A DNA stretch of 64,000 bases from Halomarina rubra (GTDB lineage: Archaea; Halobacteriota; Halobacteria; Halobacteriales; Haloarculaceae). Below the pieces are notes generated by a model. It was given only the letters and a program-made list of their open reading frames with translations, did not search any database and had not been told where the DNA came from. The translations under genes and the position numbers were made by a program. The number at the start of each line of letters is the position of its first letter. Within the stretch, counting starts at the first letter, position 1. This document shows positions 2,657 to 22,371 of the stretch, in pieces. The DNA lies in contig NZ_JALXFV010000008.1 in NCBI RefSeq assembly GCF_023699475.1, positions 596,583-660,582 of the forward strand, in the 5' to 3' direction.

Positions 2657-4807
2657 ATGGGTAGCTGTATCATCTGCGGCACGTCGACCGACGGCCGTAT
2701 CTGTTCGAGCCACGAGGAGGACGTCGTCTTCGAGTTCAAGGGAAAGCACGCCAACCAACTGACCAGCGGCCGGTTCTACCGCGGCACCGTCGACGGCTAC
2801 GCCGACTTCGGCGTCTTCGTCGACATCGGTGACCACGTCACCGGCCTCCTCCACCGCAGCGAGATCGACCGCCGACTGGAGAGCCTGACGTGGGAACCCG
2901 GCGACACCGTCTACGTGCAGGTCAAGGGCGTCCGCGACAACGGCAACATCGACCTCGGCTGGTCCATCCGCCAGGCCGACCGCGAGTTCCGCGGCGCACT
3001 CGTCGACGACCCCTCCAGCGACGAAGGGACGTACCTCCCCGACGACACCGACGAGGACGACGACCCGACGCCGACGGTCACCACGTCCTCGCCCGACCCC
3101 GAGGCGTCCTCGCAGGACGACGACTCGCAGGCCGAGTCGGACGACGCGTCCGAGAGCGACGAGACTCCCGACCCGACCGACGCCGAGCCGGACCGCCGCG
3201 AGGGTGCGAAGGCCGAGTCCTCGACGCCGAACGGCGGTGCGGTCGTCACGCAGGAACCGGCCGAGGAGACCACCGAAACGGCTGAGACGGCCGAGACCGC
3301 AGAGAGCACCGAGGAGCAGGCCGCAGACGTCGAGCGCGCGAGCATCGAGACGCTGAACGACCAGGTCGGCGACGTCGTCCGTCTCGAAGGTCGCATCGTC
3401 GGCGTGCGTCAGACCTCCGGGCCGACCGTCTTCGAACTCCGCGACGAGTCGGGTATCGTCGACTGCGCGGCGTTCGTCGAGGCCGGCGTCCGCGCGTACC
3501 CGGACGTCGAGATGGGCGACCTCGTCCGACTCGACGGCGAGGTCCGCGAACGCCGCGGCGAGCTCCAGATCGAAACCGAGGCGCTCGTCGTCCTCGAGGA
3601 CGACGACGCGGCGACGGTCAGCAGCCGGATGGACGACGCGATGGACGAGCGCGCCCGCCCGCCCGAGACCGAACTGCTGGCCGACGACGACGCCGTGGCC
3701 GCGGTCCTCGACGACACGCGCGACGCCGCGACGGCCATCCGCCGCGCCATCATCGAGTCCCGACCCGTCGTCGTCCGTCACGACGCGACCGTCGACGGCT
3801 ACCTCGCCGGCGCGGCCATCGAGCGCGCCGTCCTCCCGCTGGTACGTGAGGAACACGCCTCCAGCGACGCGGTGTACCACTACTTCGACCGCCGCCCGCT
3901 GGAGACGGTGTACGACATGGACGACGCGACGAAGGACGTCACGTCGATGCTGTCGAACCGCGACCGCCACGACGAGAAGCTCCCGCTGATGGTGTTCGCC
4001 GGTGTGGGTGCGACCCGCGACTCCCTCGACGGGTTCGGCCTGCTCGACGTCTACGGCGCGGAGCGCGTCGTCGTCGACGCGGGGACCGTCGACGAGGGCG
4101 TCGCCGACGCGACCGACGTGCTGGTCACCCCGGACACCGACGACGCGACGAGCGCCACCGCGCTCGCCAGCGCCGTCGCGCTCCACGTCAACGACGGCGT
4201 GCGCGAGGACCTCCGGCACCTCCCGGCCGCCTCGTTCTGGGAGGACGCCCCCGCCGAGTACGTCGACCTCGCCGCCGACGCGGGCTACAAGACGAGCGAC
4301 GTCGAGCACCTCCAGGAGGCCATCGCGCTCGAAGCGTACTACCAGTCCTACGAGGACAAGCGCGAACTCGTCGAGGACCTGCTGTTCGACGACAGCGAGT
4401 CGCTCGTCGAGTCCATCAGCGAACAGTTCCGCGAGAAGCTCGCCACCGAGGTCGAGACGGCCGAGGCGAACCTCGAGGAACGCGCCGAGGGCGGCGTCGC
4501 CTTCGCGGTGCTCGACACCGACTCGTTCACCCACCGCTTCGACTTCCCGTCGACGGACATCCTCCTCGACGAGGTCCACCGACGCAACCGCGACGGCTCG
4601 TTCGTCACGCTCGGCGTCGCGACCGACGAACTGCACGTCCGGTCGACGTTCGACCTCGACACCCGCGCGGTCGCCGAGGCCGCCCGCGAGAACGTGGAGA
4701 ACGCCGGCATCGACGCCCGCGGCGGCCGCGACCGCATCGAGTTCGTCGCGGGCGAACGCGACGCCGTCGTCGACGCCGTCGTCGCGGCCATCGCCGACCT
4801 CGCCTGA
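2657..4807 (+). CDS. S1/OB-fold/DHH (RecJ-like) multidomain protein with degenerate DHH motifs
   Basis: A 716-residue protein. The domains in order are: an N-terminal zinc-finger-like C-x2-C-x8-C-x2-H (C4, C7, C16, H19); an S1 RNA-binding-type domain (about 40-115); a long acidic Ser/Thr/Glu linker (about 120-225); an OB-fold nucleic-acid-binding domain (about 232-315); a DHH-type domain (about 355-550); and a C-terminal DHHA1-like region ending with GGRDRIEFVAGERDAVV. Haloarchaea carry several RecJ-family proteins of this kind, generally annotated as ssDNA exonucleases. Here motif I reads HDATVDG (375-381) rather than HxDxDG, and the DHH triad position reads D474-A-G, so metal-dependent nuclease activity is doubtful. 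The gene stands alone with roughly 110-150 bp of flanking space. Confidence 0.8.
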   Translation: MGSCIICGTSTDGRICSSHEEDVVFEFKGKHANQLTSGRFYRGTVDGYADFGVFVDIGDHVTGLLHRSEIDRRLESLTWEPGDTVYVQVKGVRDNGNIDLGWSIRQADREFRGALVDDPSSDEGTYLPDDTDEDDDPTPTVTTSSPDPEASSQDDDSQAESDDASESDETPDPTDAEPDRREGAKAESSTPNGGAVVTQEPAEETTETAETAETAESTEEQAADVERASIETLNDQVGDVVRLEGRIVGVRQTSGPTVFELRDESGIVDCAAFVEAGVRAYPDVEMGDLVRLDGEVRERRGELQIETEALVVLEDDDAATVSSRMDDAMDERARPPETELLADDDAVAAVLDDTRDAATAIRRAIIESRPVVVRHDATVDGYLAGAAIERAVLPLVREEHASSDAVYHYFDRRPLETVYDMDDATKDVTSMLSNRDRHDEKLPLMVFAGVGATRDSLDGFGLLDVYGAERVVVDAGTVDEGVADATDVLVTPDTDDATSATALASAVALHVNDGVREDLRHLPAASFWEDAPAEYVDLAADAGYKTSDVEHLQEAIALEAYYQSYEDKRELVEDLLFDDSESLVESISEQFREKLATEVETAEANLEERAEGGVAFAVLDTDSFTHRFDFPSTDILLDEVHRRNRDGSFVTLGVATDELHVRSTFDLDTRAVAEAARENVENAGIDARGGRDRIEFVAGERDAVVDAVVAAIADLA

Positions 4808-4953
4808 GCGACTGTTTCGGACCTTCACCGCGAAACGCCGTCGTGGTTAATCACGGGATAGACGGCCTGTAGACGATATTTTTCCACGCCGAGACGACTC
4901 ACATCTTGTTACCCGAGCTATAGCTTAGTCCCCGGAGTGCCCGAGGTCGAGCC

Positions 4954-5241
4954 ATGAGTGGGGGAATCGACGGTCGTCGGAGGAGACTCCCGGACCCCGA
5001 GTCACGCCGCTGGACGCTCTCGGACCTGCCGTGGCTGCTCGACGGCGAGTGGGTGGTGCAGTCGGTCGCGAACCGTATCGTCGCCAGCCGTGAGCACGCC
5101 GCGGTCGTCGTGACGCGCGAGCGTGGCGTCTACCGAGCGACGACGCGCATCCACGGCCTAGAGTACAACCACCACCAGTCGGTGACGCTGCCGGGCGCGC
5201 TCGCGGGTGTCCGGCGCGACCTGCGGCGAGAAGGCCGCTGA
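4954..5241 (+). CDS. Hypothetical protein (95 aa)
   Basis: A 95-residue basic protein starting MSGGIDGRRRRLPD, with a Trp-rich N-terminal half (WTLSDLPWLLDGEWVVQSV) and a C-terminal half containing YRATTRIHGLEYNHHQSVTL. It has no transmembrane helix or signal peptide. Basic charge is unusual beside its acidic neighbours and could indicate nucleic-acid binding, but this is only a guess. A T-rich element (GATATTTTTCC, near 4875) lies about 75 bases upstream. It is followed 77 bases later by elp3 on the same strand. The function is not recognised. Confidence 0.5.
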   Translation: MSGGIDGRRRRLPDPESRRWTLSDLPWLLDGEWVVQSVANRIVASREHAAVVVTRERGVYRATTRIHGLEYNHHQSVTLPGALAGVRRDLRREGR

Positions 5242-5318
5242 ATCCACCGGGCGACGGCCCACCGGACCGTACCGAAACCACAGCCTCTTGTCCGCCCACG
5301 CCCTCGCTCCGCCAACGA

Positions 5319-7001
5319 ATGAGCAGCGAGGCGACCGAGACGGAGGCGTTCGAGCAGGCGTGTGAGGCGCTCGTCCAGCGCATCCTCGCGGGGGAGGTCG
5401 ACCGCGACGACGTCGAGAGCGAGAAACTGGCGGTCTGTTCGGAGTTCTCCGCGCCGAAGGTGCCCAAGAACTCGGAGATTCTCGACCACGCCGGTCCGGA
5501 GTTGCGCGAGGAACTCGAACCCGTCCTCCGGCGGAAACCGGTCCGTACCGCCTCCGGCGTCTCGCCCATCGCGGTGATGACCTCGCCGCACATGTGCCCC
5601 CACGGGAAGTGTCTCTACTGTCCGGGCGGCCCAGCCTCGGAGTTCGACTCCTCTCAGAGCTACACGGGTCACGAACCCGCCGCCGCCCGCGGCGTCCAGA
5701 ACGACTACGACCCCTACGGGATGGTCACGCTCCGATTGGAGCAACTGCGCGAAATCGGGCACCCCGTCGACAAGGCCGAACTCATCGTGATGGGCGGGAC
5801 GATGACCGCCCGCAGCCACGACTACCAGGAGCACTTCGTCAAGCGCTGTCTGGAGGCGATGAACGACTACGACGTGGAGAAGGAGCCCGAACCCGCACAG
5901 GACGAGAGCTTCGCGCAGGACCCCGCGGACTACGAGTTCAGCTACCTCGAGGACGTCGTCGCGGAGAACGAGACGGCCGACGTGCGCAACATCGGGACGA
6001 CGTTCGAGACCAAACCGGACTGGTGTGACCCCGAGCAGGTCGACCGGATGCTCGCGCTCGGCGGGACGAAGGTCGAGGTCGGCGTCCAGACGACCTACGA
6101 GCGCATCAACCGCGAGATGCACCGCGGGCACGGTATCCAGGCCAGCGTCGACGCCAACCGCCGCCTGCGCGACGCCGGGTTCAAGGTGGGCTTTCACATG
6201 ATGCCCGGCCAGCCGGGGATGACTCCCGAGATGTGTCTGGAGGACTTCCGAGAGCTGTTCGACTCGACCGACTGGCGACCGGACTACCTCAAGATATACC
6301 CCACGCTCGTCGTCCGGGGCACCCGCACCTACGACATGTGGCGACGCGACGAGTACGACCCGCTCACCAACGAGGAAGCCGCCGACCTCGTCGCGGAGAT
6401 CAAGTCGATGATTCCGAAGTACACCCGCCTCCAGCGCGTCCAGCGTGACATCCCCGCGGACTTCATCGACGCCGGCGTCTGGAAGTCGAACCTCCGCCAA
6501 CTCGCCCGCAAGCGCATGGACGAGCACGGCTGGACGTGTGACTGCATCCGCTGTCGCGAGGTCGGGATGAACGACGAGAGCCCCGAGTCCATCGAGATGG
6601 ACACGCTCACCTACGAGGTGTGTGGCGGCACCGAGCAGTTCATCTCCTTCGAGGACCCCGAGAAGGACCTGCTCGTCGGGTTCTGTCGCCTGCGGTTCCC
6701 GAACGACCCAGTGCGCCGCGAACTGGAGAACGCCGCTATCGTCCGCGAACTCCACGTCTACGGCAACGAGGTCGGCGTGGGCCGCGAGCCGCGAGACGAC
6801 GGTGGAACCGCGAGCGCCGACTCGGACGACGACTTCCAGCACAAAGGGTTCGGCAAGCGCCTGCTGGGGGAGGCCGAGCGCCGCGCCCGCGACGCCGGCT
6901 TCGACAAACTCGCCGTCATCTCCGGCATCGGCGTCCGCCAGTACTACCGCGAGAAACTGGGCTACTACCAGGACGGTCCGTACGTCTCGACGTCGCTGTA
7001 G
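5319..7001 (+). CDS. elp3: Elp3: tRNA uridine-34 5-carboxymethyl synthase (radical SAM/GNAT)
   Basis: A 560-residue protein with the full archaeal Elp3 layout. The N-terminal helical segment is followed by a radical SAM domain with the cluster motif C93-x4-C98-x2-C101 (MCPHGKCLYCPGG) and then a C-terminal GNAT acetyltransferase domain (QHKGFGKRLLGEAERRARDAG, shown in part, ending GYYQDGPYVSTSL). Elp3 uses acetyl-CoA and SAM chemistry to make the cm5U modification at wobble uridine 34 of certain tRNAs, acting alone in archaea without the other Elongator subunits. Length agrees with the family. Two further Cys pairs around 513-515 and in TCDCIRC support an additional zinc site, as known for Elp3. 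It stands as a single gene. Confidence 0.96.
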   Translation: MSSEATETEAFEQACEALVQRILAGEVDRDDVESEKLAVCSEFSAPKVPKNSEILDHAGPELREELEPVLRRKPVRTASGVSPIAVMTSPHMCPHGKCLYCPGGPASEFDSSQSYTGHEPAAARGVQNDYDPYGMVTLRLEQLREIGHPVDKAELIVMGGTMTARSHDYQEHFVKRCLEAMNDYDVEKEPEPAQDESFAQDPADYEFSYLEDVVAENETADVRNIGTTFETKPDWCDPEQVDRMLALGGTKVEVGVQTTYERINREMHRGHGIQASVDANRRLRDAGFKVGFHMMPGQPGMTPEMCLEDFRELFDSTDWRPDYLKIYPTLVVRGTRTYDMWRRDEYDPLTNEEAADLVAEIKSMIPKYTRLQRVQRDIPADFIDAGVWKSNLRQLARKRMDEHGWTCDCIRCREVGMNDESPESIEMDTLTYEVCGGTEQFISFEDPEKDLLVGFCRLRFPNDPVRRELENAAIVRELHVYGNEVGVGREPRDDGGTASADSDDDFQHKGFGKRLLGEAERRARDAGFDKLAVISGIGVRQYYREKLGYYQDGPYVSTSL

Positions 7002-7028
7002 AGAGGGTCCGGTGGTGGGTTGGTAGGG

Positions 7029-7033
7029 TTTTT
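7029..7033 (+). promoter_or_regulatory. T-tract core promoter of the SHOCT gene
   Basis: A five-T run (GGGTTTTTGTC context) centred 27 bases before the GTG at 7058. The same spacing recurs at several starts in this window, which fits a haloarchaeal TATA-like box with leaderless transcription. It also lies 28 bases after the elp3 stop, so it could equally act as an elp3 terminator. Confidence 0.4.
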
Positions 7034-7057
7034 GTCACCGGAGGAGAACAGTCGGTC

Positions 7058-7591
7058 GTGTCTCGCTCTCCACTCGCCGAATCGGCCCGAATCGTCGCGC
7101 TCGCCGCGAGTGTACTCGCAGCCGTCTCGATTCTCATCGGCGTCGGGGGGCTCGTCGTTACGATTCTGTTACTGACGGCCCTCGCTGGGGCCGCGACGAT
7201 GGCGTTCGGCGACGATCGGCAACAGGAGGTTCGGCGTCGCACGAGCACGGCTCTCGACGACGTCGTCCAGACCGCACCCACTCGGTCCACAGACGCCGGC
7301 GAGGCTCCGATGGTCGATTCCGACGGGCCGACGACCGACGACGCCCTCGCGGAACTCCGCCGTCGGTACGCCGCGGGCGAACTCAGCGAACCCCAGTTCG
7401 AGGGTCGCGTCGAACGCTTGCTCGCCGACGAGGACGACCCCGACGACGCTCGTGCAGTCCTCGAACTCCGCTACGCTCGGGGCGAACTCTCCGACGAACA
7501 GTTCGACAGGAAACTCGCTCGACTCGACGGGACGCGGACCGTCGAGTCCGCCGAGCGCACGTTCGACCGCGACGCCGTCTCGGAGTCCTGA
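7058..7591 (+). CDS. Membrane protein with two SHOCT domains
   Basis: A 177-residue protein. The GTG at 7058 is chosen because it follows a GGAGGAG ribosome-binding-like sequence and leads directly into two hydrophobic segments (about residues 12-32 and 34-50). After an acidic linker come two SHOCT-type short helical hairpins: ELRRRYAAGELSEPQFEGRV (about 110-130) and ELRYARGELSDEQFDRKLAR (about 140-160). SHOCT domains are small oligomerisation or linker modules often found at the ends of bacterial and archaeal membrane proteins. A related SHOCT protein lies 0.8 kb downstream, beyond an MBL hydrolase. The cellular role is unknown. Confidence 0.7.
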   Translation: MSRSPLAESARIVALAASVLAAVSILIGVGGLVVTILLLTALAGAATMAFGDDRQQEVRRRTSTALDDVVQTAPTRSTDAGEAPMVDSDGPTTDDALAELRRRYAAGELSEPQFEGRVERLLADEDDPDDARAVLELRYARGELSDEQFDRKLARLDGTRTVESAERTFDRDAVSES

Positions 7592-7617
7592 CCGGGGTCG
7601 ACGTCGGACTGCTCCGC

Positions 7618-7621
7618 TTTT
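7618..7621 (+). promoter_or_regulatory. T-tract core promoter of the MBL hydrolase
   Basis: Four T residues in the context GCTTTTCTCC, centred about 27 bases before the ATG at 7647, in otherwise GC-rich DNA. The position matches a leaderless haloarchaeal promoter. Confidence 0.4.
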
Positions 7622-7646
7622 CTCCCCGCGACCCCTCCGGACGAGC

Positions 7647-8351
7647 ATGGAACGGGTCCGCGCAGACACCCACCGCCTCCAACTGGGCTGGACCGAACCG
7701 TTCGTCGTCAACGCCTACGTCTTCGAGGGCGAGGACGGCGTGACGCTCGTCGACACCGGGATGCCGCTCAACCGTCGGTCGCTCCGGGCCGAACTCGCGG
7801 CGGCGGGCTACGTGCCCGCGGACGTCGACCGCGTCCTGCTGACGCACTACGACCTCGACCACGTCGGCGGGCTGACCAGCCTCGCACACCGACTCGGGGG
7901 AGCGCGGTTCGACGCCGAGGTCTACCTCGGCGCGGGGGACGTGGCGCTCGTCCGGGGGACCGCCGACCCGCCGTGGGTCCACCACAAGGGAGCGTTCCAC
8001 CGCCTCGCTCGCGAGCTGTTCGACCTCGACGGAGTGGCCTTCCGAGGCGTCGCCGAGGGCGACCGTATCGGGTCGTTCACCGCGTACCACACGCCCGGTC
8101 ACAACCCCGGCCACACCGTGTACGTCCACGACGCCGGGGTCGCGTTCGTCGGCGACCTGCTGTGGGAGACCGACGGCGAACTGACGCCGCCGTTCTGGGG
8201 CGACAGCTACTCCATGCGCGAGTTGCGCGCCAGCATCCGGGCGTTCAGCGACCGGGCGGGGTCGTTCGAGGTGGTCTGTCCCGGCCACGGGACGCCGTTC
8301 GTCCGCGGCGGGAGCGACCGCGTCGCGGCGCTCTCTTCGCGCGTCGACTGA
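7647..8351 (+). CDS. MBL-fold metallo-hydrolase
   Basis: A 234-residue metallo-beta-lactamase-fold protein. The N-terminal part holds the strand and turn VTLVDTGMP; the metal motif HxxxDH is present as LTHYDLDHVGG (about residues 69-79); later HTPGHNPGHTVYV and GDLLW supply the third His and bridging Asp; a final CPGHGTPF motif closes the site. Such enzymes hydrolyse diverse thioesters, lactones or phosphoesters with a dinuclear zinc centre; the substrate cannot be read from sequence. The start follows a T-rich promoter element by 27 bases. It sits between two SHOCT proteins, all on the plus strand and each with its own promoter-like element. Confidence 0.85.
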   Translation: MERVRADTHRLQLGWTEPFVVNAYVFEGEDGVTLVDTGMPLNRRSLRAELAAAGYVPADVDRVLLTHYDLDHVGGLTSLAHRLGGARFDAEVYLGAGDVALVRGTADPPWVHHKGAFHRLARELFDLDGVAFRGVAEGDRIGSFTAYHTPGHNPGHTVYVHDAGVAFVGDLLWETDGELTPPFWGDSYSMRELRASIRAFSDRAGSFEVVCPGHGTPFVRGGSDRVAALSSRVD

Positions 8352-8388
8352 GCGGTCGGTGGCCCCGACACCTGCCCATTCGGGAGTG

Positions 8389-8392
8389 TTTT
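8389..8392 (+). promoter_or_regulatory. T-tract core promoter of the second SHOCT gene
   Basis: Four T residues (GTGTTTTCACC context) about 28 bases before the ATG at 8419, matching the spacing seen for neighbouring genes. Confidence 0.35.
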
Positions 8393-8418
8393 CACCTCGT
8401 CGGCGAAACGGTCGTGCG

Positions 8419-8931
8419 ATGAGTGCCGACACGCCGCGAGAGCGCCTCCGAGAGAACGCGACGGGCATCGCCTCGACGCTGGTAACGGGCACCTGGCTCG
8501 CGGCGCTGTTCCTGGGTGTGGAGTGGTGGCTCCCGCTGATGCTGTTCGGCTACATCGTCGTCATCCCCATCGTCTCGTTGCTGTTTGGCGACGACGAGGA
8601 CCGCGAGGAGTGGTGGGACGAGGACGGTCAGTCGGCGTGGTGGGGGACCAAGGAGGACTGGTTCGGGACGGGGTGGGGGAGCGACCCGGAGACGGACCGC
8701 GACACCGCGACGACCGCTTCGCCGGCCTCGACGCCGGACGAGACGCCGCTGGAGACCCTCAGACGTCGCTACGCGGCGGGTGAACTCACCGACGCCCAGT
8801 TCGAGGCGAAACTGGAACGCCTGCTGGAGACGGACACGCTGGAGAACGCCGAGGAGCGGGCGGCCCGGCGCGAGCGCGAGAGTCTCCGCGACCGAGACCG
8901 ACTCGACGAGCGCGACCGGGAGTACGAGTGA
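8419..8931 (+). CDS. Membrane protein with one SHOCT domain
   Basis: A 170-residue protein. Two hydrophobic segments lie at about residues 18-35 and 37-55 (WWLPLMLFGYIVVIPIVSLL). A Trp-rich acidic stretch follows (EEWWDEDGQSAWWG). The single SHOCT domain near residues 115-138 reads LRRRYAAGELTDAQFEAKLE. A highly charged Arg/Glu C-terminal helix with repeated RDR/ERD steps is probably a coiled coil. The SHOCT block is nearly the same as the first one in the gene at 7058, so the two are likely paralogues. The function is unknown; SHOCT modules are generally taken as oligomerisation elements. Confidence 0.7.
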   Translation: MSADTPRERLRENATGIASTLVTGTWLAALFLGVEWWLPLMLFGYIVVIPIVSLLFGDDEDREEWWDEDGQSAWWGTKEDWFGTGWGSDPETDRDTATTASPASTPDETPLETLRRRYAAGELTDAQFEAKLERLLETDTLENAEERAARRERESLRDRDRLDERDREYE

Positions 8932-9000
8932 GAGCGCCGGGCGACGCCCACCGACCGCAGCGGGAGCCGAGTGTCGCGGTGGACTACCGCGGTCCGCGTC

Positions 9001-9005
9001 TTTTT
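9001..9005 (+). promoter_or_regulatory. T-tract core promoter of the FAD amine oxidase gene
   Basis: A TTTTT run (GTCTTTTTGCG context) centred 28 bases before the ATG at 9031, the expected distance for a leaderless transcript. Confidence 0.4.
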
Positions 9006-9030
9006 GCGTCGCACGGCCGTCGGTTCGGAC

Positions 9031-10074
9031 ATGACCGTCGCAATCGTCGGAGCCGGTGCAGCGGGTGCGGCCATCGCCTACGCGCTTCGAGACGCCGACG
9101 CCGACGTCACCGTCTTCGAGAAGTCCCGTGGCGTCTGTGGTCGGGCCGCGACCCGTCGCAAGGAGGGCTGTCGCTACGACTACGGCGCGAACTACGTCAA
9201 GGACGACGACGAGCGCGTCACCCGGCTGCTGACCGAGGAGTTGGACACGAACGGCCTCGTCGAGGTCGAAGAACCCGTCTGGACGTTCGACTCGGCGGGG
9301 GAGATATCGCCGGGGCGCGACAGCGACGAACGCAAGTGGACCTACGAGGACGGCATCACCCAGCTAGCCAAACGGCTGTTCGCGGCCACGGACGCGACGG
9401 TCCAGCGCGAGACGCGCGTCGAGACCGTCGCTCGCGAGGAGGGGCGGTGGTCGCTGGCCGACGCCGCCGACACCGTCCTCGGGTCGTTCGACACGGTCGT
9501 GCTCACGCCGCCGGCACCCCAGACCGCCGAGTTGCTCGCGGCGATGGCGTGGGACGACGACCGACGCGTCGCGGCGCACGACGCCGTCGCGGCCGTCGAC
9601 TACGCGTCGGTGTTCACCGCCGTGCTCCACTACCCGTTCACCCTCGACCGCTCGTGGTACGCCCTGATCGACACCGACGGCGAGCACCCCGTCGGCTGGC
9701 TCGCCCGCGAGGAGCTCAAACCCGGCCACGTCCCCGAGGGCGAGAGCCTGCTGGTCGCCCAGATGGGCCACGACTGGTCGGGCGACCGCATCGACGACGA
9801 CCGCGACCAGGTGCTCCGGGAGGCGGTGGGACACGTCGCGGAACTGCTCGACGACGACCGGTTCGCCGCCCCCGACTGGACCGACCGGCAGGGGTGGCGA
9901 TACGCGCTCCCGGACGGCGGCGTCACGGGCGACGCCCACCGGTCGACGGAGGACGCCGGGCTCTACTTCGCTGGCGACTGGGTGGCCGGCGAAGCCCGCG
10001 TCCACGCCGCACTGCGCAACGGGTTCGCGGTCGGCGAGCGCATCGTGGAGGCGCGGAACGCGAAGACGTACTGA
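9031..10074 (+). CDS. FAD-dependent amine oxidase/renalase-like oxidoreductase
   Basis: A 347-residue protein starting MTVAIVGAGAAGAAIAYALR, a classic GxGxxG Rossmann motif for FAD, then ADVTVFEKSRGVCGR (Glu binding the adenosine ribose, and the following Gly/Arg motif). The C-terminal flavin-binding motif is GLYFAGDWVAGEARVHAAL. This layout and length match bacterial and archaeal renalase-like or amine oxidase family proteins, which oxidise dihydronicotinamides or amines. The substrate is not determinable. It is a monocistronic gene with its own T-rich promoter, and its start is fixed by the Rossmann fold at residue 2. Confidence 0.8.
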   Translation: MTVAIVGAGAAGAAIAYALRDADADVTVFEKSRGVCGRAATRRKEGCRYDYGANYVKDDDERVTRLLTEELDTNGLVEVEEPVWTFDSAGEISPGRDSDERKWTYEDGITQLAKRLFAATDATVQRETRVETVAREEGRWSLADAADTVLGSFDTVVLTPPAPQTAELLAAMAWDDDRRVAAHDAVAAVDYASVFTAVLHYPFTLDRSWYALIDTDGEHPVGWLAREELKPGHVPEGESLLVAQMGHDWSGDRIDDDRDQVLREAVGHVAELLDDDRFAAPDWTDRQGWRYALPDGGVTGDAHRSTEDAGLYFAGDWVAGEARVHAALRNGFAVGERIVEARNAKTY

Positions 10075-10165
10075 CGACGGCTGCCTCGCGCGTCCGTCGT
10101 GCCGTCGGGAACCTGTGACCGAGGCGAGGGTTTTTGTCCTCCCTCTCAGAGTGCTAGCCGTCATC

Positions 10166-10192
10166 ATGCAACGAGGGGTGTGTCCGTGCTGA
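10166..10192 (+). other. Possible 8-codon upstream ORF overlapping the permease start
   Basis: An ATG 33 bases after the T-tract at 10131-10135 opens a reading frame of eight codons (MQRGVCPC) and stops at 10190-10192, overlapping the GTG start of the permease in another frame. The first ATG of the predicted transcript therefore does not belong to the permease. It may be chance or may couple translation. Confidence 0.25.
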
Positions 10193-11517
10193 CCGAACGG
10201 GAGGGCGGTGACGTCGGGTTGCTCGACGCCGTCGCCATCGAGGTCGGTCTGGTCGTCGGCGGTGCGCTGTTCAGTCTCACCGGAGTCGCGACGGGAATCG
10301 CGGGCACGGGCGTGTTCGTCTCGTTCGCGCTCGCGTTCGGTATCGTCGTGCTCGGTCTCGTCCCGACGGCGATGTTGGGTGCGGCGTTCCCGACGACCGG
10401 CGGGAACTACCGCTACCCGCGGGCGTTCGTCTCGCCCTTTGTCGCCTTCCTCGCGGCGTGGGGGCTGGGCGTGAGCATGTTCGGCGGCGGGTTGCCGCTG
10501 TACGCGCTCACGTTCGGCCAGTACGTCGAGTCGCTGGTCGCCGTCGACCCCGTCGTCGTCGGCTTGGCGGTGCTCACCGCGTTCTTCCTCGTCAACCTCG
10601 CGGGCATCCACGTCGCCGCCCGCGTCCAGGTGCTGCTGTTCGTCGCGCTCGTCGCCGCACTCGGCGTGTTCGTCGTCGGTGGCGCACCGGCCGTCGACAC
10701 CGCGAACCTGACGCCGCTGTTCTCGACTGGCCCGACGGGACTGGTCGCGGGCGCGGCCGTCCTCTACTTCGTCTGTCTGGGTGCGAACTTCGTCGTCGAC
10801 ATCGGCGGCGACGTCCGGGAGGCGACGGTCACGCTCCCGCAGTCGCTCGCCATCAGCGTCCCGCTCGTCCTCCTGTTGTACGTCGCGACGGCCGTCGTCG
10901 CCGTCGGGTCGGTCGGGGTCGGTGCGCTGACGGACGAACCGCTCACGGTCGCCGCCGACGCGTTCCTCTCGCCGGGGCTGCGTGGCTTCTTCGTCGTCGG
11001 TGGCGCGCTGTTCGCCATCACGACGTCCATCAACGCCGTGTTCATCATCGTCCCGAAGTACCTCGACGCGCTGGCGACCGACAGGTTGGTTCCGGGCGTC
11101 CTCGCGACGACGAACGACCGCTTCGGGACGCCACACTGGGGGCTGGCGCTGGTGTACCTGCTGTCGGTGCTGGCGCTCGTCAGCCCGCTCCCCATCGCGG
11201 AACTCGGGACGTTGCTCGGGTTCGGCGGCATCTTCCTCATCGTCCCCGTGATGCTCGCGGCCATCCGGGCGGTGCGTCGCCGACCCGAGGCGTTCGCGGC
11301 GGTCCCCTCGTACGTCGGGCGGCGCGCGACCACCGTCCTCGCGGCGAGCGCCGTGGTCTGCAACGCGCTCCTGTTCGTCGTCCTCGCCACCCAGTCGCCG
11401 GTCGTCTGTGCGACCTGGCTCGGTCTCGTCGCACTCGGCGCGGGCTACTACCTCGTCCGGACCCGACTCGGTGCCGGCGAGCGCGACCCCGACCCCGTCG
11501 TGGAGGGGTCGCTGTGA
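10186..11517 (+). CDS. APC-superfamily amino acid permease
   Basis: A 443-residue polytopic membrane protein with about 12 hydrophobic helices. The first helix carries the APC signature region GLVVGGALFSLTGVATGIAG; TTGGNYRYPRAFVSP follows helix 2-3, a conserved loop in amino acid/polyamine/organocation transporters. These are proton- or sodium-coupled symporters or exchangers of amino acids. The start is GTG 10186 (or GTG 10180, two codons earlier). The stop overlaps the next gene by GTGA, so the permease and the hydroxyacyl-CoA dehydrogenase are one operon. A hydroxyacid or amino-acid-derived substrate is possible but unproven. Confidence 0.85.
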   Translation: MLTEREGGDVGLLDAVAIEVGLVVGGALFSLTGVATGIAGTGVFVSFALAFGIVVLGLVPTAMLGAAFPTTGGNYRYPRAFVSPFVAFLAAWGLGVSMFGGGLPLYALTFGQYVESLVAVDPVVVGLAVLTAFFLVNLAGIHVAARVQVLLFVALVAALGVFVVGGAPAVDTANLTPLFSTGPTGLVAGAAVLYFVCLGANFVVDIGGDVREATVTLPQSLAISVPLVLLLYVATAVVAVGSVGVGALTDEPLTVAADAFLSPGLRGFFVVGGALFAITTSINAVFIIVPKYLDALATDRLVPGVLATTNDRFGTPHWGLALVYLLSVLALVSPLPIAELGTLLGFGGIFLIVPVMLAAIRAVRRRPEAFAAVPSYVGRRATTVLAASAVVCNALLFVVLATQSPVVCATWLGLVALGAGYYLVRTRLGAGERDPDPVVEGSL

Positions 11518-12608
11518 GGACCGGTGTCGTCGGCGCGGGCGTGATGGGTCGGGACATCGCCGGCCTGTTCGCCAACGGCGGCCACGACGTGACGCTCGTC
11601 GACGTCGACCCCGACGCGCTGGCGGCCGCTCGGGACTACCACCGCGAGACGCTCCGCGACGCGCTCGCCGACGCCGGTCTGGTCGCCGAGGACGACCCGG
11701 CCGAGCGCATCGTCTACGACCGGAGCATCGAATCGCTCGCGGACGCGCGGTTCGTCGTCGAGGCCGTCCCCGAGCGTCTCGGCCTGAAGCGGTCGTTGCT
11801 GGCGGACCTCGACGCGGTGCTCGACGCCGACACCGTCGTCGGGACGAACACCTCCTCGCTCACACCCTCGGCCATCGCCGCCGACTCCGAGCACCCCGAG
11901 CGTGTCGTCCTGTTCCACTTCGCCAACCCCGCCATCCCCCGGGACGTCGTCGAGATATCGGGCGACGACGCAAGCGACGCGGCCCTGAATCTGGCCGTCG
12001 AGGTTGCCGAGGACATCGGGAAACACCCCGTCGTCCTCGGTGCGGAGTACCGGGCGAACTGTCTCTCGCGGCTCTCGGCGAGCATCAAGTGCGCCGCGAC
12101 GTGGGAGTTGCGCGTCGCCTCGCCCGCGGCCATCGACGGCGCGGCCCGCGCCATCGGGTTCGACCGCGGTCCCCTGGAGTTCATCGACCTCATCGGCCTC
12201 GACGTCCACCTCGCGACAGTCGACAACCTCGCGGAGGCGTACGGCGACCGATACGCCCCGCCCGCCGAGTCCCGCGAACGCATGGAGCGGATGCGCGAGG
12301 AGGGCCGCCTCGGCACGAAGACCGGCGAGGGGTTCTTCGAGTGGGACGGCGAGACCTGCCTCGTCCCAGAGACCGACGAGACGTACGACGTGACGCCCGT
12401 CGTCGCCGCCCTCGTCAACGAGGGCCACCGCCTCGTCGCCGACGGCGTGGCCGACGCGGAGACGGTCAACGACGTCCTGAAACGCGGCTCCGGGGGCGAG
12501 GTCGGGCCGTTCGACGTCGAGGCGATGCTGGGTTCGGAGTACCTCCGCGAGACGCTGGTGCGCCGCCACGAGGAGACCGGCGCGGGCGTCTACGACCCCG
12601 TCTTCTGA
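11514..12608 (+). CDS. 3-hydroxyacyl-CoA dehydrogenase
   Basis: A 364-residue protein. The N-terminal NAD-binding domain starts RTGVVGAGVMGRDIAGLFA (GxGxMG), with VTLVDVDPDAL ending in the Asp that selects NAD. The central motif NTSSLTPSAIA plus VLFHFANPAIPRDVVEI gives the family His-x-x-x-Pro region (HFANP rather than the usual HFFNP). The C-terminal helical domain includes GPLEFIDLIGLDV and a GLGTKTGEGFFEW-like segment (RLGTKTGEGFFEW). The enzyme oxidises 3-hydroxyacyl-CoA in beta-oxidation. The GTG start overlaps the permease stop. A second small C-terminal domain occupies the last 70 residues. The substrate chain length is unknown. Confidence 0.88.
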   Translation: MRTGVVGAGVMGRDIAGLFANGGHDVTLVDVDPDALAAARDYHRETLRDALADAGLVAEDDPAERIVYDRSIESLADARFVVEAVPERLGLKRSLLADLDAVLDADTVVGTNTSSLTPSAIAADSEHPERVVLFHFANPAIPRDVVEISGDDASDAALNLAVEVAEDIGKHPVVLGAEYRANCLSRLSASIKCAATWELRVASPAAIDGAARAIGFDRGPLEFIDLIGLDVHLATVDNLAEAYGDRYAPPAESRERMERMREEGRLGTKTGEGFFEWDGETCLVPETDETYDVTPVVAALVNEGHRLVADGVADAETVNDVLKRGSGGEVGPFDVEAMLGSEYLRETLVRRHEETGAGVYDPVF

Positions 12609-12627
12609 CCGCCTCGGCGTGGATACA

Positions 12628-12637
12628 CTCTTATCAT
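12628..12637 (+). promoter_or_regulatory. TATA-like box of the small membrane protein gene
   Basis: CTCTTATCAT, an AT-rich island centred about 26 bases before the ATG at 12657, consistent with a leaderless promoter. Confidence 0.45.
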
Positions 12638-12656
12638 CGGATACCTAACACGAACC

Positions 12657-12989
12657 ATGGTCCTCCACACGGTCGGTCGCTGTCTCCTGCGGTACAGCCT
12701 CGTCTACGCCGGTCTCACCGTCGCGGTCGTCGCGATCGTCTTCGGCAGCGAACTCGCGGTGTTCAGTCTGTTCGGCGTCGGCCTCCTGCTGGTGCTGTTC
12801 GCGGTCGGTGCCAGCGACTACCGGGTCGTCGGGTCGAGCGTCCCCGAGGCGGGCCTCGCCCGGGGCCAACGAACCATCGTCAGCGAACACACCGCGATGC
12901 CACTGGACAAGGTGCTCCTCTTCTACGGGGTTGGCCTGGCGGTCATCGCCTTCGCGACGGTCGCCGTCGCCGGGGCGTACCTCGGGTAG
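12657..12989 (+). CDS. Small membrane protein (110 aa)
   Basis: A 110-residue protein with hydrophobic segments at about residues 13-32, 34-50 and 87-107. The middle section carries a short polar loop (SSVPEAGLARGQRTIVSEHT). No motif identifies a function. A TATA-like box lies 26 bases upstream. It is convergent with the lipoprotein gene on the other strand, separated by 26 bases. Confidence 0.6.
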   Translation: MVLHTVGRCLLRYSLVYAGLTVAVVAIVFGSELAVFSLFGVGLLLVLFAVGASDYRVVGSSVPEAGLARGQRTIVSEHTAMPLDKVLLFYGVGLAVIAFATVAVAGAYLG

Positions 12990-13015
12990 GCCACGCTGCC
13001 GCCGAACCGCCCCAC

Positions 13016-13855
13016 TCACTCGGGAGTTTCGTCGGCCGAATCGCGGGGCTCGTCGGTCGTCCCGCGAGTCTCGTCGAACCAGTCGGGGCGCTCGACCGTC
13101 GTCGACCCGACCGCCGAGTACCGGACCGTCTCGACCCCTTCGACGCGCGTCTCCGGGGCGTCGGCGAGTCGTCCCTCGAACTCGATGCGGTAGTGTTCGA
13201 CCCGCCCTTCGTTCGTCAGTCGGACGGTGACCGTCGCCTGGGTGACCTCGACCCGTTCGCCACCGACCGTCAGGTTCCCGGCGGGTCCACGGAGTCGAAG
13301 TTCGAGGTCGCTCCCGGCCGGCGTGACGCTCACCGTCTCGGCACCGAGGTAGAACGGTTCGAGCGCGAGTTCCGCGCGCTGGCCGGGCGTTCCGAGCCTG
13401 ACGACGTCGACGACGGCGGTCCCGTTCGGCCCCACCCCGCGGTAGTAGTGGCGCTGTCCGTCGTACCAGCCTTCGACGCGAGTCACAGGTCGGTCGAAAA
13501 ACCGCGTGACGTCGCCGGTCCCGTTCGTCGTCGAGCGCGTCCGCCCGTGGTCGCTCGCGATCCGGGTCGTGGTAGTCGAGTCGACGAGGACGGTCCCGTT
13601 CGCCGCCGTGAGGGTCTGGTTCTGTCGCACGGTGAAACTGGTGTTCGCCAGCGCCGCGGTGTGGGCGTCGGCCAGCGCGAACGGGTCGTCGATACCGGTC
13701 GCGTCCAACCCGTCGGGCGGGTGTTCGAGGGGGTCGTCGGTGGGGACGGCCGCCGGGGACGAGGGGGCCCGCGTCTCGGCGTCGTTCCCGACCCCGCCGC
13801 TACAGCCGGCGAGACAGACGACCACGACGAGAGCGAGCGAGAGCGTACGGCGCAC
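13016..13855 (-). CDS. Predicted lipoprotein of unknown function
   Basis: A 279-residue exported protein. The signal peptide MRRTLSLALVVVVCLAGC ends in a lipobox LAGC with Cys at residue 18, predicting lipid anchoring on the cell surface. A Ser/Pro/Asp-rich linker follows (about 25-55), then a beta-rich domain with several Asn-x-Thr/Ser sequons (NTSFTVRQNQTLTAANGT) that may be N-glycosylated, and a DWFDETRGTTDEPRD acidic tail. The shape, a lipoprotein that binds something like an outer-membrane carrier fold, recalls LolA/YcnI-like haloarchaeal lipoproteins, but I do not assign it. The start is GTG at 13855. An inverted repeat lies upstream at 13889-13910. Confidence 0.65.
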   Translation of the reverse strand: MRRTLSLALVVVVCLAGCSGGVGNDAETRAPSSPAAVPTDDPLEHPPDGLDATGIDDPFALADAHTAALANTSFTVRQNQTLTAANGTVLVDSTTTTRIASDHGRTRSTTNGTGDVTRFFDRPVTRVEGWYDGQRHYYRGVGPNGTAVVDVVRLGTPGQRAELALEPFYLGAETVSVTPAGSDLELRLRGPAGNLTVGGERVEVTQATVTVRLTNEGRVEHYRIEFEGRLADAPETRVEGVETVRYSAVGSTTVERPDWFDETRGTTDEPRDSADETPE

Positions 13856-13888
13856 AGCCCACTATCGACGGGTCGTCTGTTCAATCTT

Positions 13889-13910
13889 CTGTGAGGTCCG
13901 GGCCTCACAG
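13889..13910. promoter_or_regulatory. Perfect 8-bp inverted repeat between two minus-strand genes
   Basis: CTGTGAGG, a six-base loop, then CCTCACAG. It lies 28 bases after the TPP-enzyme stop and 34 bases before the lipoprotein start, just upstream of an AT-rich box (near 13879-13887). It could be an operator upstream of the lipoprotein promoter or a hairpin ending the TPP-enzyme transcript; no long T-tract follows, so the operator reading is slightly favoured. Confidence 0.4.
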
Positions 13911-13938
13911 CTGGGTCGAGGCGGTCCGGTCGGCATCC

Positions 13939-15588
13939 TCAGACCAGCACCGGCGGTGCGGCGTACGGGTCGACCACCACGTCGAGCAGCGTCGGGCGGT
14001 CGCTGTCGACGGCCTCGGCGAGCGCTCCGGCGAGTCGCGACGGGTCCTCGATGCGTTCGGCCGCACAGCCGAAGCCGCGAGCGACCTGCGCGTAGTCGAC
14101 GCTCGCGAAGTCCGTCGACTGGTCGACGGCGTAGTTCCCCAGTTGGCTCGCCTTCGAGGAGCCGAGCATCGCGTTGTCCGCGACGACGACGGTGACGGGG
14201 AGGTCCTCCCGGACGGCGGTCTCCAGGTCGGCGATGTGGTAGCCGAGACCGCCGTCGCCCGTCAGCACGACGACGGGTGCGTCGGGGCGAGCGACCTGGA
14301 TGCCGAGCGCCTGCGGGAGGGCGTAGTTGATGCCGTCGCTCCCGCGAGCCTGGACGTAGCCCAGACCGGCGCGGGGCACCTCGTGGAACGCTCCCGAGAA
14401 GAACCCGGAGTAGCTGGTCGCACTGACGAGGACGCCGTCGTCGGGCAGCGCGGTCCCGATGTCGGCGACGACGCGGGCCGGGCGGATGGGCGTCGCGTCG
14501 CTCTCCAGTTCGTCGCGGTGGTGTTCCTGCCAGTCGGCGCGGTCGGCCGCCAGCGACTCGACGCGACCCGCTCGGTCGGCGAACTCGTCGTCGTCGAGCG
14601 CGCCGGTCAGCGACTCGACGGCGGCCCGGAGGTCGGCGGCAATCGCCACCTCGGCGTCGTAGTTCCGGCCGAGCCAGGCGGGGTCGCGGTCGACGTGGAC
14701 CACCGTCGCATCGTCGTCGAGCAGCGACCAGCCGACGGTCGTGAGTTCGCCGAGCCGACAGCCCAGCGCGAGGACGAGGTCCGCGTCCGCGACGGCGTCG
14801 TTCGCCACCTGGCAGAACCCCCAGCGGCCGACGACGCCCAGCGCGTACGGGGCCGTCTCGGCGACCGCTCCCTTCCCGTTCATCGAGGTGACGACGGGTG
14901 TGTTCGTCGTCTCGGCGAACGCGACGAGCGCCCGGTGGGCCGCCGCGCGGTGGACGCCCTCGCCGGCGACGACGACCGGTCGCTCCGCCGCGCGGAGTAG
15001 GTCGGTCGCTCGCTCGACGTCCTCGGGGTCGGGGTGGGGACGGTCGGCGGGGAAGTCGGCGGCGACGGTACGCTCGGTCGTCTCACCGCTCGTCTCCGCA
15101 CGAAGTACGTCCTCGGGAACGTTGAGGTGGACGGGACCGGGGACGCCGCCGACCGCCTCGCGGAGCAACGACGCGGTGTCGTCGAGAACGCGCTCCGGCG
15201 TCACCGCGTCGGCGCTCGCCGCCACGTGTGGCGCGAGGATGGCCTCGTTGTCGGCGTCCTGGATGACGCCGGTGCCGCGGGTGGCGACGGGGTTGTCGCC
15301 GGTGAGCGCGAAGACGGGCGAGGACGCGCCGGTGGCCTCGACCAGACCGACGCCGAGGTTCGCCGCGCCGGGGCCGCCGACGCCGTCGACGACGCCGACC
15401 CGACCGCTGGCGCGGGCGTAGCCGTCCGCCATGATGGCCGCGCTCGCCTCGCTGCGGGCGAGGACGTGCCGGAGGTCGGAGTCGGCGAGGCTGGCGTAGT
15501 ACGGGTCCATCTGCTCGCAGGGGAAACCGAACACGGTGTCGAGGCCGGCGCGCTCGAACAGTGCGACGAGGTCGTCGGTCACCGGCAT
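13939..15588 (-). CDS. Thiamine-diphosphate-dependent enzyme (acetolactate synthase/benzoylformate decarboxylase family)
   Basis: A 549-residue protein with the three-domain TPP fold. The N-terminal PYR domain has the cofactor-activating Glu in ARSEASAAIMADGYARASG (about 45-63). The central domain follows. The C-terminal PP domain carries the Mg-TPP motif GDGGLGYHIADLETAV, ending in VVADNAMLG. These enzymes decarboxylate 2-keto acids or condense them. No regulatory subunit gene (ilvN) is adjacent, which argues against biosynthetic acetolactate synthase and for a decarboxylase or other ligase. The start is the ATG of MPVTDDLVALF, about 40 bases after a predicted TSS. A palindrome lies over that TSS. 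Confidence 0.85.
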   Translation of the reverse strand: MPVTDDLVALFERAGLDTVFGFPCEQMDPYYASLADSDLRHVLARSEASAAIMADGYARASGRVGVVDGVGGPGAANLGVGLVEATGASSPVFALTGDNPVATRGTGVIQDADNEAILAPHVAASADAVTPERVLDDTASLLREAVGGVPGPVHLNVPEDVLRAETSGETTERTVAADFPADRPHPDPEDVERATDLLRAAERPVVVAGEGVHRAAAHRALVAFAETTNTPVVTSMNGKGAVAETAPYALGVVGRWGFCQVANDAVADADLVLALGCRLGELTTVGWSLLDDDATVVHVDRDPAWLGRNYDAEVAIAADLRAAVESLTGALDDDEFADRAGRVESLAADRADWQEHHRDELESDATPIRPARVVADIGTALPDDGVLVSATSYSGFFSGAFHEVPRAGLGYVQARGSDGINYALPQALGIQVARPDAPVVVLTGDGGLGYHIADLETAVREDLPVTVVVADNAMLGSSKASQLGNYAVDQSTDFASVDYAQVARGFGCAAERIEDPSRLAGALAEAVDSDRPTLLDVVVDPYAAPPVLV

Positions 15589-15616
15589 CGCGTCGCCTCC
15601 ACGGGAGGGTCGGTTC

Positions 15617-15631
15617 GTGGTCGCATACCAC
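15617..15631. promoter_or_regulatory. Palindrome over the predicted TSS of the TPP-enzyme gene
   Basis: GTGGT-CGCAT-ACCAC, a five-base inverted repeat. The TATA-like box on the minus strand (CTAGTTATTTGT, 15649-15660) predicts transcription from about 15628, inside this palindrome, as expected of a repressor operator. It is short, so chance is possible. Confidence 0.35.
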
Positions 15632-15648
15632 AATCGACACACCGACCG

Positions 15649-15660
15649 ACAAATAACTAG
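15649..15660 (-). promoter_or_regulatory. TATA box of the TPP-enzyme gene
   Basis: CTAGTTATTTGT on the minus strand is the only AT-rich island upstream of the TPP-enzyme gene, about 65 bases before the ATG, predicting a leader of roughly 40 bases. Confidence 0.45.
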
Positions 15661-15711
15661 CCTCGGAGGGATTCCACGCGACTCGTGCCCGATTGGTCCC
15701 CAGGTGGGCCG

Positions 15712-16967: not shown

Positions 16968-17089
16968 GGCTGAGCGTGGGCGGGCCGAGCGGATACGTGT
17001 TCTGGCGGTGGCAGGTACACGACGAGACCGTGAGAGGCGGTGCCGACGGACCGATATCCCTTTTCACTCCGCCCGTAGACCGTGTGGGT

Positions 17090-19246
17090 ATGGAACGAAA
17101 GCGCGAGTTGACGAGCGTCGACTGCGCGGCCCTCGCGCGCGAACTCGGCAAGTACGAGGGCGCGAAGGTCGACAAGGCATACCTCTACGGCGAGGACATG
17201 CTGCGGCTGAAACTCCGGGACTTCGAGCGTGGCCGCCTCGAACTGCTCGTGGAGGTCGGCGAGCCGAAACGCGCCCACCTCGCGGCCCAGGAGCACGTCC
17301 CCGACGCCCCGGGGCGTCCGCCGAACTTCGCGATGATGCTCCGCAACCGCATCACGAGCGCGGACTTCGCCGGGGTCGAACAGTTCGAGTTCGACCGCAT
17401 CCTCACCTTCCACTTCGAGCGCGACGACGGCGACACCCACATCGTCGCCGAGCTGTTCGGCGACGGCAACGTCGCGGTCTGTGACGACAACTACGAGGTG
17501 CTCGGCAGTCTGGAGACCGTCCGTCTCAAGTCCCGGACCGTCGCGCCAGGGTCGCTGTACGACTATCCCTCTTCGCGCTTCAACCCGCTGAAGGTCGACG
17601 AGGAGGGGTTCACCGCTCGGATGCAGCAGTCCGACACGGACGTGGTTCGGACCATCGCCACCCAACTCAACTTCGGTGGGCTGTGGGCAGAGGAGCTGTG
17701 TACCCGCGCCGGCGTCGAGAAGACGAAGGACATCGCGGACGCCACCGAGGAGGACTACGCCGCGCTGTACGAACAGCTCGACCGCCTCCGGACCGTCCTG
17801 CGCTCGGGCGAGTTCGACCCACGGGTGTACTACGAGTCCGTCGACGGCGACGGGAGCGGCGACGACGGGAACGGGGACGACGCCGACGGCGAGAACGAGG
17901 TCCGTGCGGACGTCACGCCCGTCCCCCTCGAAGAGTACGAGGGCAAGCACGCCGAGGTGTTCTCGAACTTCAACGACGCGCTCGACGACTACTTCTTCAA
18001 CTTCGAGCGCGACCCCGGCGACGAGGCGACCGGTGGGGGAGCGTCTTCACGCCCCGACTTCGAAGAGGAGATCGCGAAGTTCGAGCGCATCATCGCCCAG
18101 CAGGAGGGTGCAATCGACAGCTTCGACGAGGACGCCCAGGAGGAACGCGAGCGCGCCGAACTGCTGTACGCGCGCTACGACCTCGTCGACGACGTCATCT
18201 CGGCGGTCCAGTCCGCCCGCGCGGAGGACGTGCCGTGGGACGACATCGCCGCCCGGTTCGAGGAGGGCGCGGAGAAGGGCATCGAGGCGGCCGAGGCCGT
18301 CGACGACGTGAACGGTGCGCAGGGTACCGTCACCCTCGTCGTCGACGACACGCGCGTCACCGTCGACCCCTCGATGGGCGTCGAGAAGAACGCCGACCGC
18401 CTCTATCAGGAGGCGAAGCGTGTCGAGGAGAAGAAGGAGGGTGCACTCGCGGCCATCGAGGACACGCGCGAACAGCTCGAAGACGCGAAACAGCGCCGCG
18501 ACGACTGGGAAGCCCCCGACGAACCGGACGAGGACGACGAGTCGATGGCCGACGTCGACTGGCTCTCGCGGGCGTCGATTCCGCGGCGACGCGACGAGCA
18601 GTGGTACGAGCGCTTTCGCTGGTTCCGCACGAGCGACGGCTACCTCGTGCTCGGCGGGCGCAACGCCGACCAGAACGAGGAGTTGGTCAAGAAGTACACC
18701 GAGAAGCACGACCGTTTCCTCCACACCCAGGCCCACGGCGCGCCCGTCACCATCCTGAAGGCGAGCGAACCGAACGAGCCCTCCGAGGCCGTCGACTTCC
18801 CCGACAGTTCGCTCGAACAGGCCGCGCAGTTCGCCATCACCTACTCGTCGGTGTGGAAGGACGGCCAGTTCGCCGGCGACGTCTACATGGCCGAACCGAG
18901 CCAGGTGTCGAAGACTCCCGAGAGCGGCGAGTACGTCGAGAAGGGGTCGTTCGTCGTCCGCGGCGACCGCACGTACTTCCGGGACACGCCCGTCGGCTGT
19001 GCGGTCGGTATCGCCGTCGAACCGCAGACGCAGGTGCTCGGCGGACCGCCCGAAGCCGTCGAACCGCGAACCGAGACCTCGATTCGCCTCGAACCCGGCC
19101 AGTACGCCCAGAACGACATGGCGAAGATGCTCTACCGGGAGTTCAAGGGCCGCTTCGAGGACCAGACGTTCGTCCGGAAGGTGGCGAGCGCCGACCGCAT
19201 CCAGGAGTTCCTCCCGAACGGCGGCAGTCGGATGGCAGAGGAGTAG
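17090..19246 (+). CDS. rqcH: RqcH: ribosome quality control factor (NEMF/Rqc2/FbpA family)
   Basis: A 718-residue protein. The N-terminal NFACT-N domain begins MERKRELTSVDCAALARELG and contains the D102-R103 pair (EFDRILTFHF), equivalent to the DR motif that RqcH needs for tRNA binding. A central coiled-coil region (about 370-510) is rich in Glu/Arg/Lys, and the NFACT-R domain follows (WYERFRWFRTSDGYLVLGGR, then NEELVKKYTEKHDRFLHTQ). RqcH binds the large subunit carrying a stalled peptidyl-tRNA and recruits tRNA-Ala to add C-terminal alanine tails; archaeal members are inferred to do the same. An acidic insert of about 20 residues occurs near residue 250-275 (GSGDDGNGDDADGE). Pelota lies 2 kb away. 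Confidence 0.92.
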   Translation: MERKRELTSVDCAALARELGKYEGAKVDKAYLYGEDMLRLKLRDFERGRLELLVEVGEPKRAHLAAQEHVPDAPGRPPNFAMMLRNRITSADFAGVEQFEFDRILTFHFERDDGDTHIVAELFGDGNVAVCDDNYEVLGSLETVRLKSRTVAPGSLYDYPSSRFNPLKVDEEGFTARMQQSDTDVVRTIATQLNFGGLWAEELCTRAGVEKTKDIADATEEDYAALYEQLDRLRTVLRSGEFDPRVYYESVDGDGSGDDGNGDDADGENEVRADVTPVPLEEYEGKHAEVFSNFNDALDDYFFNFERDPGDEATGGGASSRPDFEEEIAKFERIIAQQEGAIDSFDEDAQEERERAELLYARYDLVDDVISAVQSARAEDVPWDDIAARFEEGAEKGIEAAEAVDDVNGAQGTVTLVVDDTRVTVDPSMGVEKNADRLYQEAKRVEEKKEGALAAIEDTREQLEDAKQRRDDWEAPDEPDEDDESMADVDWLSRASIPRRRDEQWYERFRWFRTSDGYLVLGGRNADQNEELVKKYTEKHDRFLHTQAHGAPVTILKASEPNEPSEAVDFPDSSLEQAAQFAITYSSVWKDGQFAGDVYMAEPSQVSKTPESGEYVEKGSFVVRGDRTYFRDTPVGCAVGIAVEPQTQVLGGPPEAVEPRTETSIRLEPGQYAQNDMAKMLYREFKGRFEDQTFVRKVASADRIQEFLPNGGSRMAEE

Positions 19247-21303: not shown

Positions 21304-22371
21304 ATGCGCATCGCGGACCGCTACCACGTCGAGGGCGGGAAGGAGAAGATAACGCTCGTTCCCGAGACGCTCGACGACCTCTGGCATCTCAACTACATCC
21401 TCGAACCCGGCGACCTCGTCGGCGGCGACACCCACCGACGGGTCCGCCGCGACGACGAGCAACTGCGCGACTCCGGCGGCGAGCGCGAACACATGTACGT
21501 CACGTTGAACGTCGACGAGACGGAGTTCGCCCGCTTCGCGAACCGCTTGCGAGTGTCGGGGGTCATCGAGGACTGCTCGCGGGAGGATCAACTCGGCTTC
21601 CACCACACGCTCAACGTCGAGGGAAACGAGGAGTTGGAGGTCACCAAACACTGGAAACCCGACCAGCTCGACCGGCTGGAGGAGGCCGTCGAGGCGACCG
21701 AGACTGCCGACGTCGCCGTCGCCACCGTCGAGGAGGGCGCGGCCCACGTCCACACCGTCGCCCAGTACGGCGCGGAAGAGCGCGTCGCGCTGACGGGGAC
21801 GACCGGGAAAGGCGAGTTCGCTCAGGGACGCGACCAGTTGTTCGCCGAACTCACGACGGTGCTCCAGCGGATGGACGTCGACGCCATCATCCTCGCCGGG
21901 CCGGGGTTCACGAAACAGGACGCGCTCGACTACATCGAGGAGAACGCCCGCGACCTCACCGAGAAGATAACGGTCGTCGACACGAGCGCCGTCGGCGACC
22001 GCGGGGTCCACGAGGTCCTCAAACGCGGCGCGGTCGAGGACGTACAGGCCGAGACCCGCATCACCCGCGAGGCCGAACTCATCGACGAGTTGATGAGCGA
22101 GATCGGGCAGGGCGCGAAGGCGGCCTACGGCGTCGAAGAGGTCCAGAAGGCCGTCGAGTTCGGCGCGGTCGAGACCCTGCTCGTCGTCGACGAGCGCCTC
22201 CGCCTCGAACGCGCCGGCGAGGGCGAGTGGGACGCCGACGCCAACGCGCTGCTCGAATCGGTCGACCAGAAAGGCGGGGACGTGGTCGTGTTCTCCCACG
22301 AGTTCGACCCCGGCGAGCAGTTGGCGAACCTCGGTGGCATCGCCGCGATTCTCCGCTACCGACTGCAGTGA
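21304..22371 (+). CDS. pelA: Pelota (Dom34) mRNA surveillance/ribosome rescue protein
   Basis: A 355-residue protein, the normal archaeal length. The N-terminal Sm-like domain begins [20 protein letters not shown] and continues [15 protein letters not shown]. The central and C-terminal eRF1-like domains follow ([15 protein letters not shown] and, near the end, [12 protein letters not shown]). There is no GGQ peptide-release loop, as expected of Pelota rather than aRF1. With its GTPase partner (aEF1A in archaea) it enters the empty A site of stalled ribosomes and, with ABCE1, splits subunits. It is adjacent to rqcH-side genes, which supports ribosome rescue as its role. The start is ATG 21304, no strong TATA visible. 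Confidence 0.95.

Follow-up and report, generated by a model that had tools for sequence, protein, structure and literature searches.

RecJ4 of Halomarina rubra: a maintained DHH pseudoenzyme and probable scaffold for RecJ3 and aRNase J

What a RecJ-like protein might still do once its DHH active site has decayed is the question raised by an open reading frame near the start of a 64,000-nucleotide stretch of the Halomarina rubra genome (the window). The gene, recJ4 (2657..4807, + strand, as are all other features located in the window below), runs from an ATG start to a TGA stop and encodes a protein of 716 aa. A close orthologue is present in 144 of 145 sampled Halobacteria genomes, with a best E value of 6e-151 or lower.

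Domain layout and family placement

The product opens with a zinc-finger-like CxxC(8)CxxH motif visible in the translation (residues 4-19; 2666..2713), and an N-terminal MGxCIICG...C..H pattern is found in most RecJ4 orthologues. An S1 domain follows (residues 37-100; 2765..2956; Pfam PF00575, E 1.8e-10), connected by an acidic disordered linker (residues 126-222; 3032..3322; mean identity 0.37) to an OB-fold (residues 241-312; 3377..3592; Pfam PF01336, E 1.3e-12). The original prediction had described finger, S1 domain and OB-fold as intact, in agreement with the cysteine and histidine spacing in the reading frame and with both Pfam matches. The remainder of the chain comprises a degenerate DHH domain (residues 369-531; 3761..4249), delimited by alignment to PDB entry 5YH1 and to the RecJ3 paralogue of the same genome, and a C-terminal DHHA1-like region from which the GGGH loop is missing (residues 532-716; 4250..4804), identified from alignments and the AlphaFold model. 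Unlike the S1 domain and OB-fold, the DHH region gives no match to the Pfam DHH model anywhere in the 716-aa product. The AlphaFold model has a mean pLDDT of 82.1 and is confident throughout except in the linker, where values fall below 50.

Sequence, fold, partner set and synteny all point, with orthology-level similarity, to RecJ4 of H. volcanii (HVO_2889). The product combines S1, OB-fold and DHH-superfamily regions in one chain, places a long acidic disordered region (IDR) between S1 and OB at residues 126-222, and lacks active-site residues that its paralogue RecJ3 retains intact. HVO_2889 has the same domain order (S1, long IDR, OB, DHH) and the same active-site loss, and its setting is also alike, with an adjoining elp3 gene, the partners encoded and no exosome. 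No difference between the two is known at the level of family universality, architecture and the elp3 neighbour, on which the assignment rests. The published H. volcanii protein is devoid of active-site residues and carries its long IDR between S1 and OB at residues 100-235 (PMC10470531), which the linker described here matches.

Among solved structures, the DHH core of P. furiosus HAN is the best relative (5YH1, E 1.3e-43), and residues 319-711 are collinear with it. Against NF053577, the NCBIfam model for the Hef-associated nuclease, RecJ4 reaches 359.9 bits over residues 214-715, short of the curated cut-off of 840 bits, whereas the intact RecJ3 of the same genome scores 1055.6 bits; with this score and without intact DHH motifs, RecJ4 is not itself a HAN. 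The same relationship emerges from structure, as 5YH1 is also the best match to the RecJ4 model (TM-target 0.81), with RecJ, GAN and archaeal RecJ-Cdc45 structures far behind (0.31-0.56 for GAN and RecJ-Cdc45). In the phylogenetic tree, RecJ4 forms one clade apart from RecJ3, with a UFBoot value of 100 and a long stem. RecJ4 therefore belongs to the HAN/RecJ3 lineage as a paralogue of RecJ3/HAN (HVO_1018; P. furiosus PF0399, PDB 5YH1), homologous and collinear with it over the OB and DHH-DHHA1 regions and about 36% identical to RecJ3 of the same genome. HAN retains the HxDxDG motif, the motif II Asp, DHH, DRS and GGGH, all of which are missing as such from RecJ4, and its IDR spans 22 residues as compared with about 100. 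The H. rubra RecJ3 gene (G000:C9:338765-340591) lies about 5 kb from the gene for ribosomal protein S3Ae.

Loss of the active site and selection on the remnant

Motif I aligns without gaps, reading RHHADTDG in P. furiosus HAN, RHHADGDG in the RecJ3 of the same genome and RHDATVDG in RecJ4 (remnant HDATVDG, residues 375-381; 3779..3799). H375 corresponds to the His just before motif I in HAN, such that the motif His has become D376 and the first Asp T378, with D380-G381 kept. The original prediction located HDATVDG correctly, but counted the motif as one residue longer than HxDxDG because this first His was taken for the motif His; relative to HAN and RecJ3 there is no insertion. The motif II Asp is replaced by G449 (4001..4003), a position occupied by G in 46, A in 46, D in 17 and S in 1 of 110 orthologues. 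The DHH position reads D474-A475-G476 (4076..4084), as first proposed and as confirmed in the translation. The DRS segment of RecJ3/HAN is gone from the alignment, and the GGGH loop, GVSGGGHLVVGSI in RecJ3, has become GIDARGGRDRI. The original prediction had overlooked these two losses and that of the motif II Asp. In sum, RecJ4 lacks the motif I His and first Asp, the motif II Asp, both His residues of DHH, DRS and GGGH, and keeps D380-G381, D474 and H521-x-P523.

These losses are shared across the family and are not due to chance. Among the 110 haloarchaeal orthologues, D474 is present in 107, His occurs at position 476 in four and at 475 in none, and neither the motif I His nor the first DHH His is found in any. 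Two of the seven canonical residues are left in 89 sequences, three in 15 and one in 6. Within the tree set, by comparison, the motifs are intact in every haloarchaeal RecJ3 (30 of 30) and in each HAN from outside that was examined. The collinear alignment of residues 319-711 with the HAN core rules out that a true DHH or HxDxDG is concealed at another place in the protein, and the reading of a degenerate site accordingly stands.

The decayed domain nevertheless remains under constraint. Comparison with each of the three nearest relatives gives dN/dS values of 0.26-0.42 for the whole protein, 0.20-0.33 for the DHH domain and 0.57-0.93 for the linker at residues 126-222. Open frames in the 110 orthologues, together with purifying selection in the DHH domain, rule out a pseudogene or frameshift. 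Judged from these sequence comparisons, the combination of family-wide site loss and purifying selection on the DHH domain identifies RecJ4 as a maintained pseudoenzyme, in which the largely kept D380, D474 and H521 may still support residual metal binding.

Function of a catalytically dead RecJ

The H. volcanii proteins RecJ3, RecJ4 and aRNase J assemble at 2:2:1 into a complex that degrades RNA and ssDNA as a 3'-5' exonuclease (Jia et al. 2023, PMC10470531), and the RecJ3/4 subcomplex is likewise a 3'-5' exonuclease (PMC10470531). RecJ4 is required there for co-purification of RecJ3 with aRNase J, apparently as a non-catalytic scaffold, and both recJ3 and recJ4 matter when cells recover from DNA damage (PMC10470531). 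Co-purification with Cas1 is also documented for RecJ3, RecJ4, RNase J and Cdc48a (PMC9051519). The H. rubra genome encodes aRNase J as well as the intact RecJ3, and a search of it for the RNase PH subunits of the RNA exosome (RNase_PH) found none.

The best explanation, and one in which we place high confidence, is that catalytically dead RecJ4 scaffolds RecJ3 and aRNase J as in H. volcanii. It would most likely hetero-oligomerize with the cell's own active RecJ3, with its long acidic disordered linker and its S1, OB and zinc-finger part holding aRNase J; the substrates of the resulting 3'-5' exonuclease complex would be RNA and ssDNA, in a cell that lacks the RNA exosome. We infer that the same complex forms in H. 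rubra and that the dead DHH region would itself be a RecJ3-binding surface. The aRNase J contact within the IDR cannot be pinpointed because this region is poorly conserved. That RecJ4 might be a non-catalytic scaffold in repair had been suggested for this locus at the outset, a proposal now strengthened by the family-wide site loss and by the scaffold and DNA damage data for H. volcanii RecJ4 (PMC10470531).

The gene neighbourhood adds a second theme. Across 80 haloarchaeal recJ4 loci, examined with flanks of no more than 10 kb, the downstream neighbour elp3 (5319..7001; NCBIfam TIGR01211) recurs in 61, on the same strand in 60, and a Yip1-domain gene lies upstream in 48; H. volcanii elp3 is HVO_2888, the number adjoining HVO_2889. 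The gene for the archaeal ribosome rescue protein RqcH (17090..19246; NF041120) is found within about 10 kb of recJ4 in 36 of the 80 loci, always on the same strand, and that for the mRNA surveillance factor Pelota (21304..22371; TIGR00111) within about 10 kb in 14. No gene that separates elp3 from rqcH in the window is found in more than 17 of these loci. The order and strand of recJ4, elp3, rqcH and pelota (window positions 2657-22371) are kept across many haloarchaeal families, with variable spacing.

Since recJ4 is linked in this way to ribosome rescue genes, the complex may help to clear stalled-ribosome mRNA. A main role for RecJ4 in RNA surveillance, with the RecJ3/aRNase J complex degrading such mRNA after Pelota and RqcH have acted, in a part comparable to that of the exosome in eukaryotic no-go decay, is also consistent with the S1 and OB domains and with the absence of RNase PH subunits. 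The support is one of gene linkage, however, and the published phenotypes concern DNA damage (PMC10470531), in a paper whose main text makes no mention of Elp3, Pelota or RqcH. Such a main role is therefore unlikely, though it is compatible with the scaffold reading and does not exclude it. Similarly unlikely is the proposal that, in exosome-less haloarchaea, RecJ4 connects a complex degrading RNA in the 3'-5' direction with the rescue of ribosomes by Pelota and RqcH.

We consider it quite improbable that RecJ4 has kept nuclease activity by way of a rearranged metal site on D380, D474 and H521. Each of these residues is conserved in at least 89% of orthologues, and the H. volcanii RecJ3/4 subcomplex has 3'-5' exonuclease activity (PMC10470531), but only one to three of the seven canonical residues are left, GGGH and DRS are gone, and RecJ3 alone could account for the activity of the subcomplex.

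The least probable reading, raised as a replication parallel in the original prediction, makes RecJ4 the haloarchaeal Cdc45, the non-catalytic RecJ of a CMG helicase with GINS and MCM: RecJ4 is an inactive RecJ relative, and H. volcanii Cdc45 was left open among RecJ1-4 (PMC7776575), but the fold is closer to HAN than to GAN or archaeal RecJ-Cdc45 (TM-target 0.81 against 0.31-0.56), the S15/RecJ/Pcc1/S3Ae neighbourhood holds a different gene, and RecJ4 is missing from one haloarchaeal assembly, which is unexpected for a core replisome part. Eukaryotic Cdc45, in which catalysis is lost, and archaeal GAN have the DHH-family fold in common with RecJ4, yet the match is distant and both fold and sequence assign RecJ4 to the HAN rather than the GAN lineage. 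The haloarchaeal Cdc45/RecJ candidate of Makarova et al. (2012) is arCOG00428, an inactivated RecJ encoded among S15, S3Ae and Pcc1, from which the multi-OB branch arCOG00429 was kept apart (PMC3307487). Like RecJ4, arCOG00428 is an inactive RecJ-family protein of Halobacteria, but it is another gene in another neighbourhood. In H. rubra, the run S15, a 372-aa gene, Pcc1 and S3Ae lies on another contig (G000:C9, about 331.7-334.2 kb). The 372-aa protein (L189:3173-4291, G000:C9) matched no family and no credible PDB entry by sequence, and S1 and OB domains were undetected in it; its gene is thus a candidate for arCOG00428 by position. The assignment of RecJ4 as Cdc45 is not supported.

Distribution, origin and significance

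RecJ3 is present in 59 of 59 Halobacteria genomes, and outside Halobacteria, within the phylum, only HAN-level matches occur among the matches listed. The single exception among the Halobacteria, G021 (1.9 Mb, from the same order as H. rubra), lacks RecJ4 and has intact HAN only. A RecJ3/RecJ4 duplication after the split of G021 is weakly rejected (AU p 0.038), and this genome has therefore probably lost recJ4 or has an assembly gap there. A duplication in the haloarchaeal stem and an older one fare about equally (AU 0.44 vs 0.55). The HAN of G021 itself bears an N-terminal zinc finger, and RNase PH subunits are absent from this genome. They are also absent from two genomes of family f13, outside Halobacteria (G147 and G214), which have intact HAN and aRNase J and no RecJ4. 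RecJ4 does not mark exosome loss in general, because G021 and the two f13 genomes, all without RNase_PH, have HAN only.

The scaffold role of RecJ4 was published in 2023 and is thus mostly known. What the present analysis provides is class-wide confirmation that the RecJ3/4-aRNase J complex includes a maintained pseudoenzyme as one of its partners, and an argument against RecJ4 as the haloarchaeal Cdc45. The linkage of recJ4 with rqcH and pelota offers one lead worth testing, a possible tie between the nuclease complex and ribosome quality control; if it were true, a pseudoenzyme scaffold would replace the exosome in archaeal no-go/non-stop decay.
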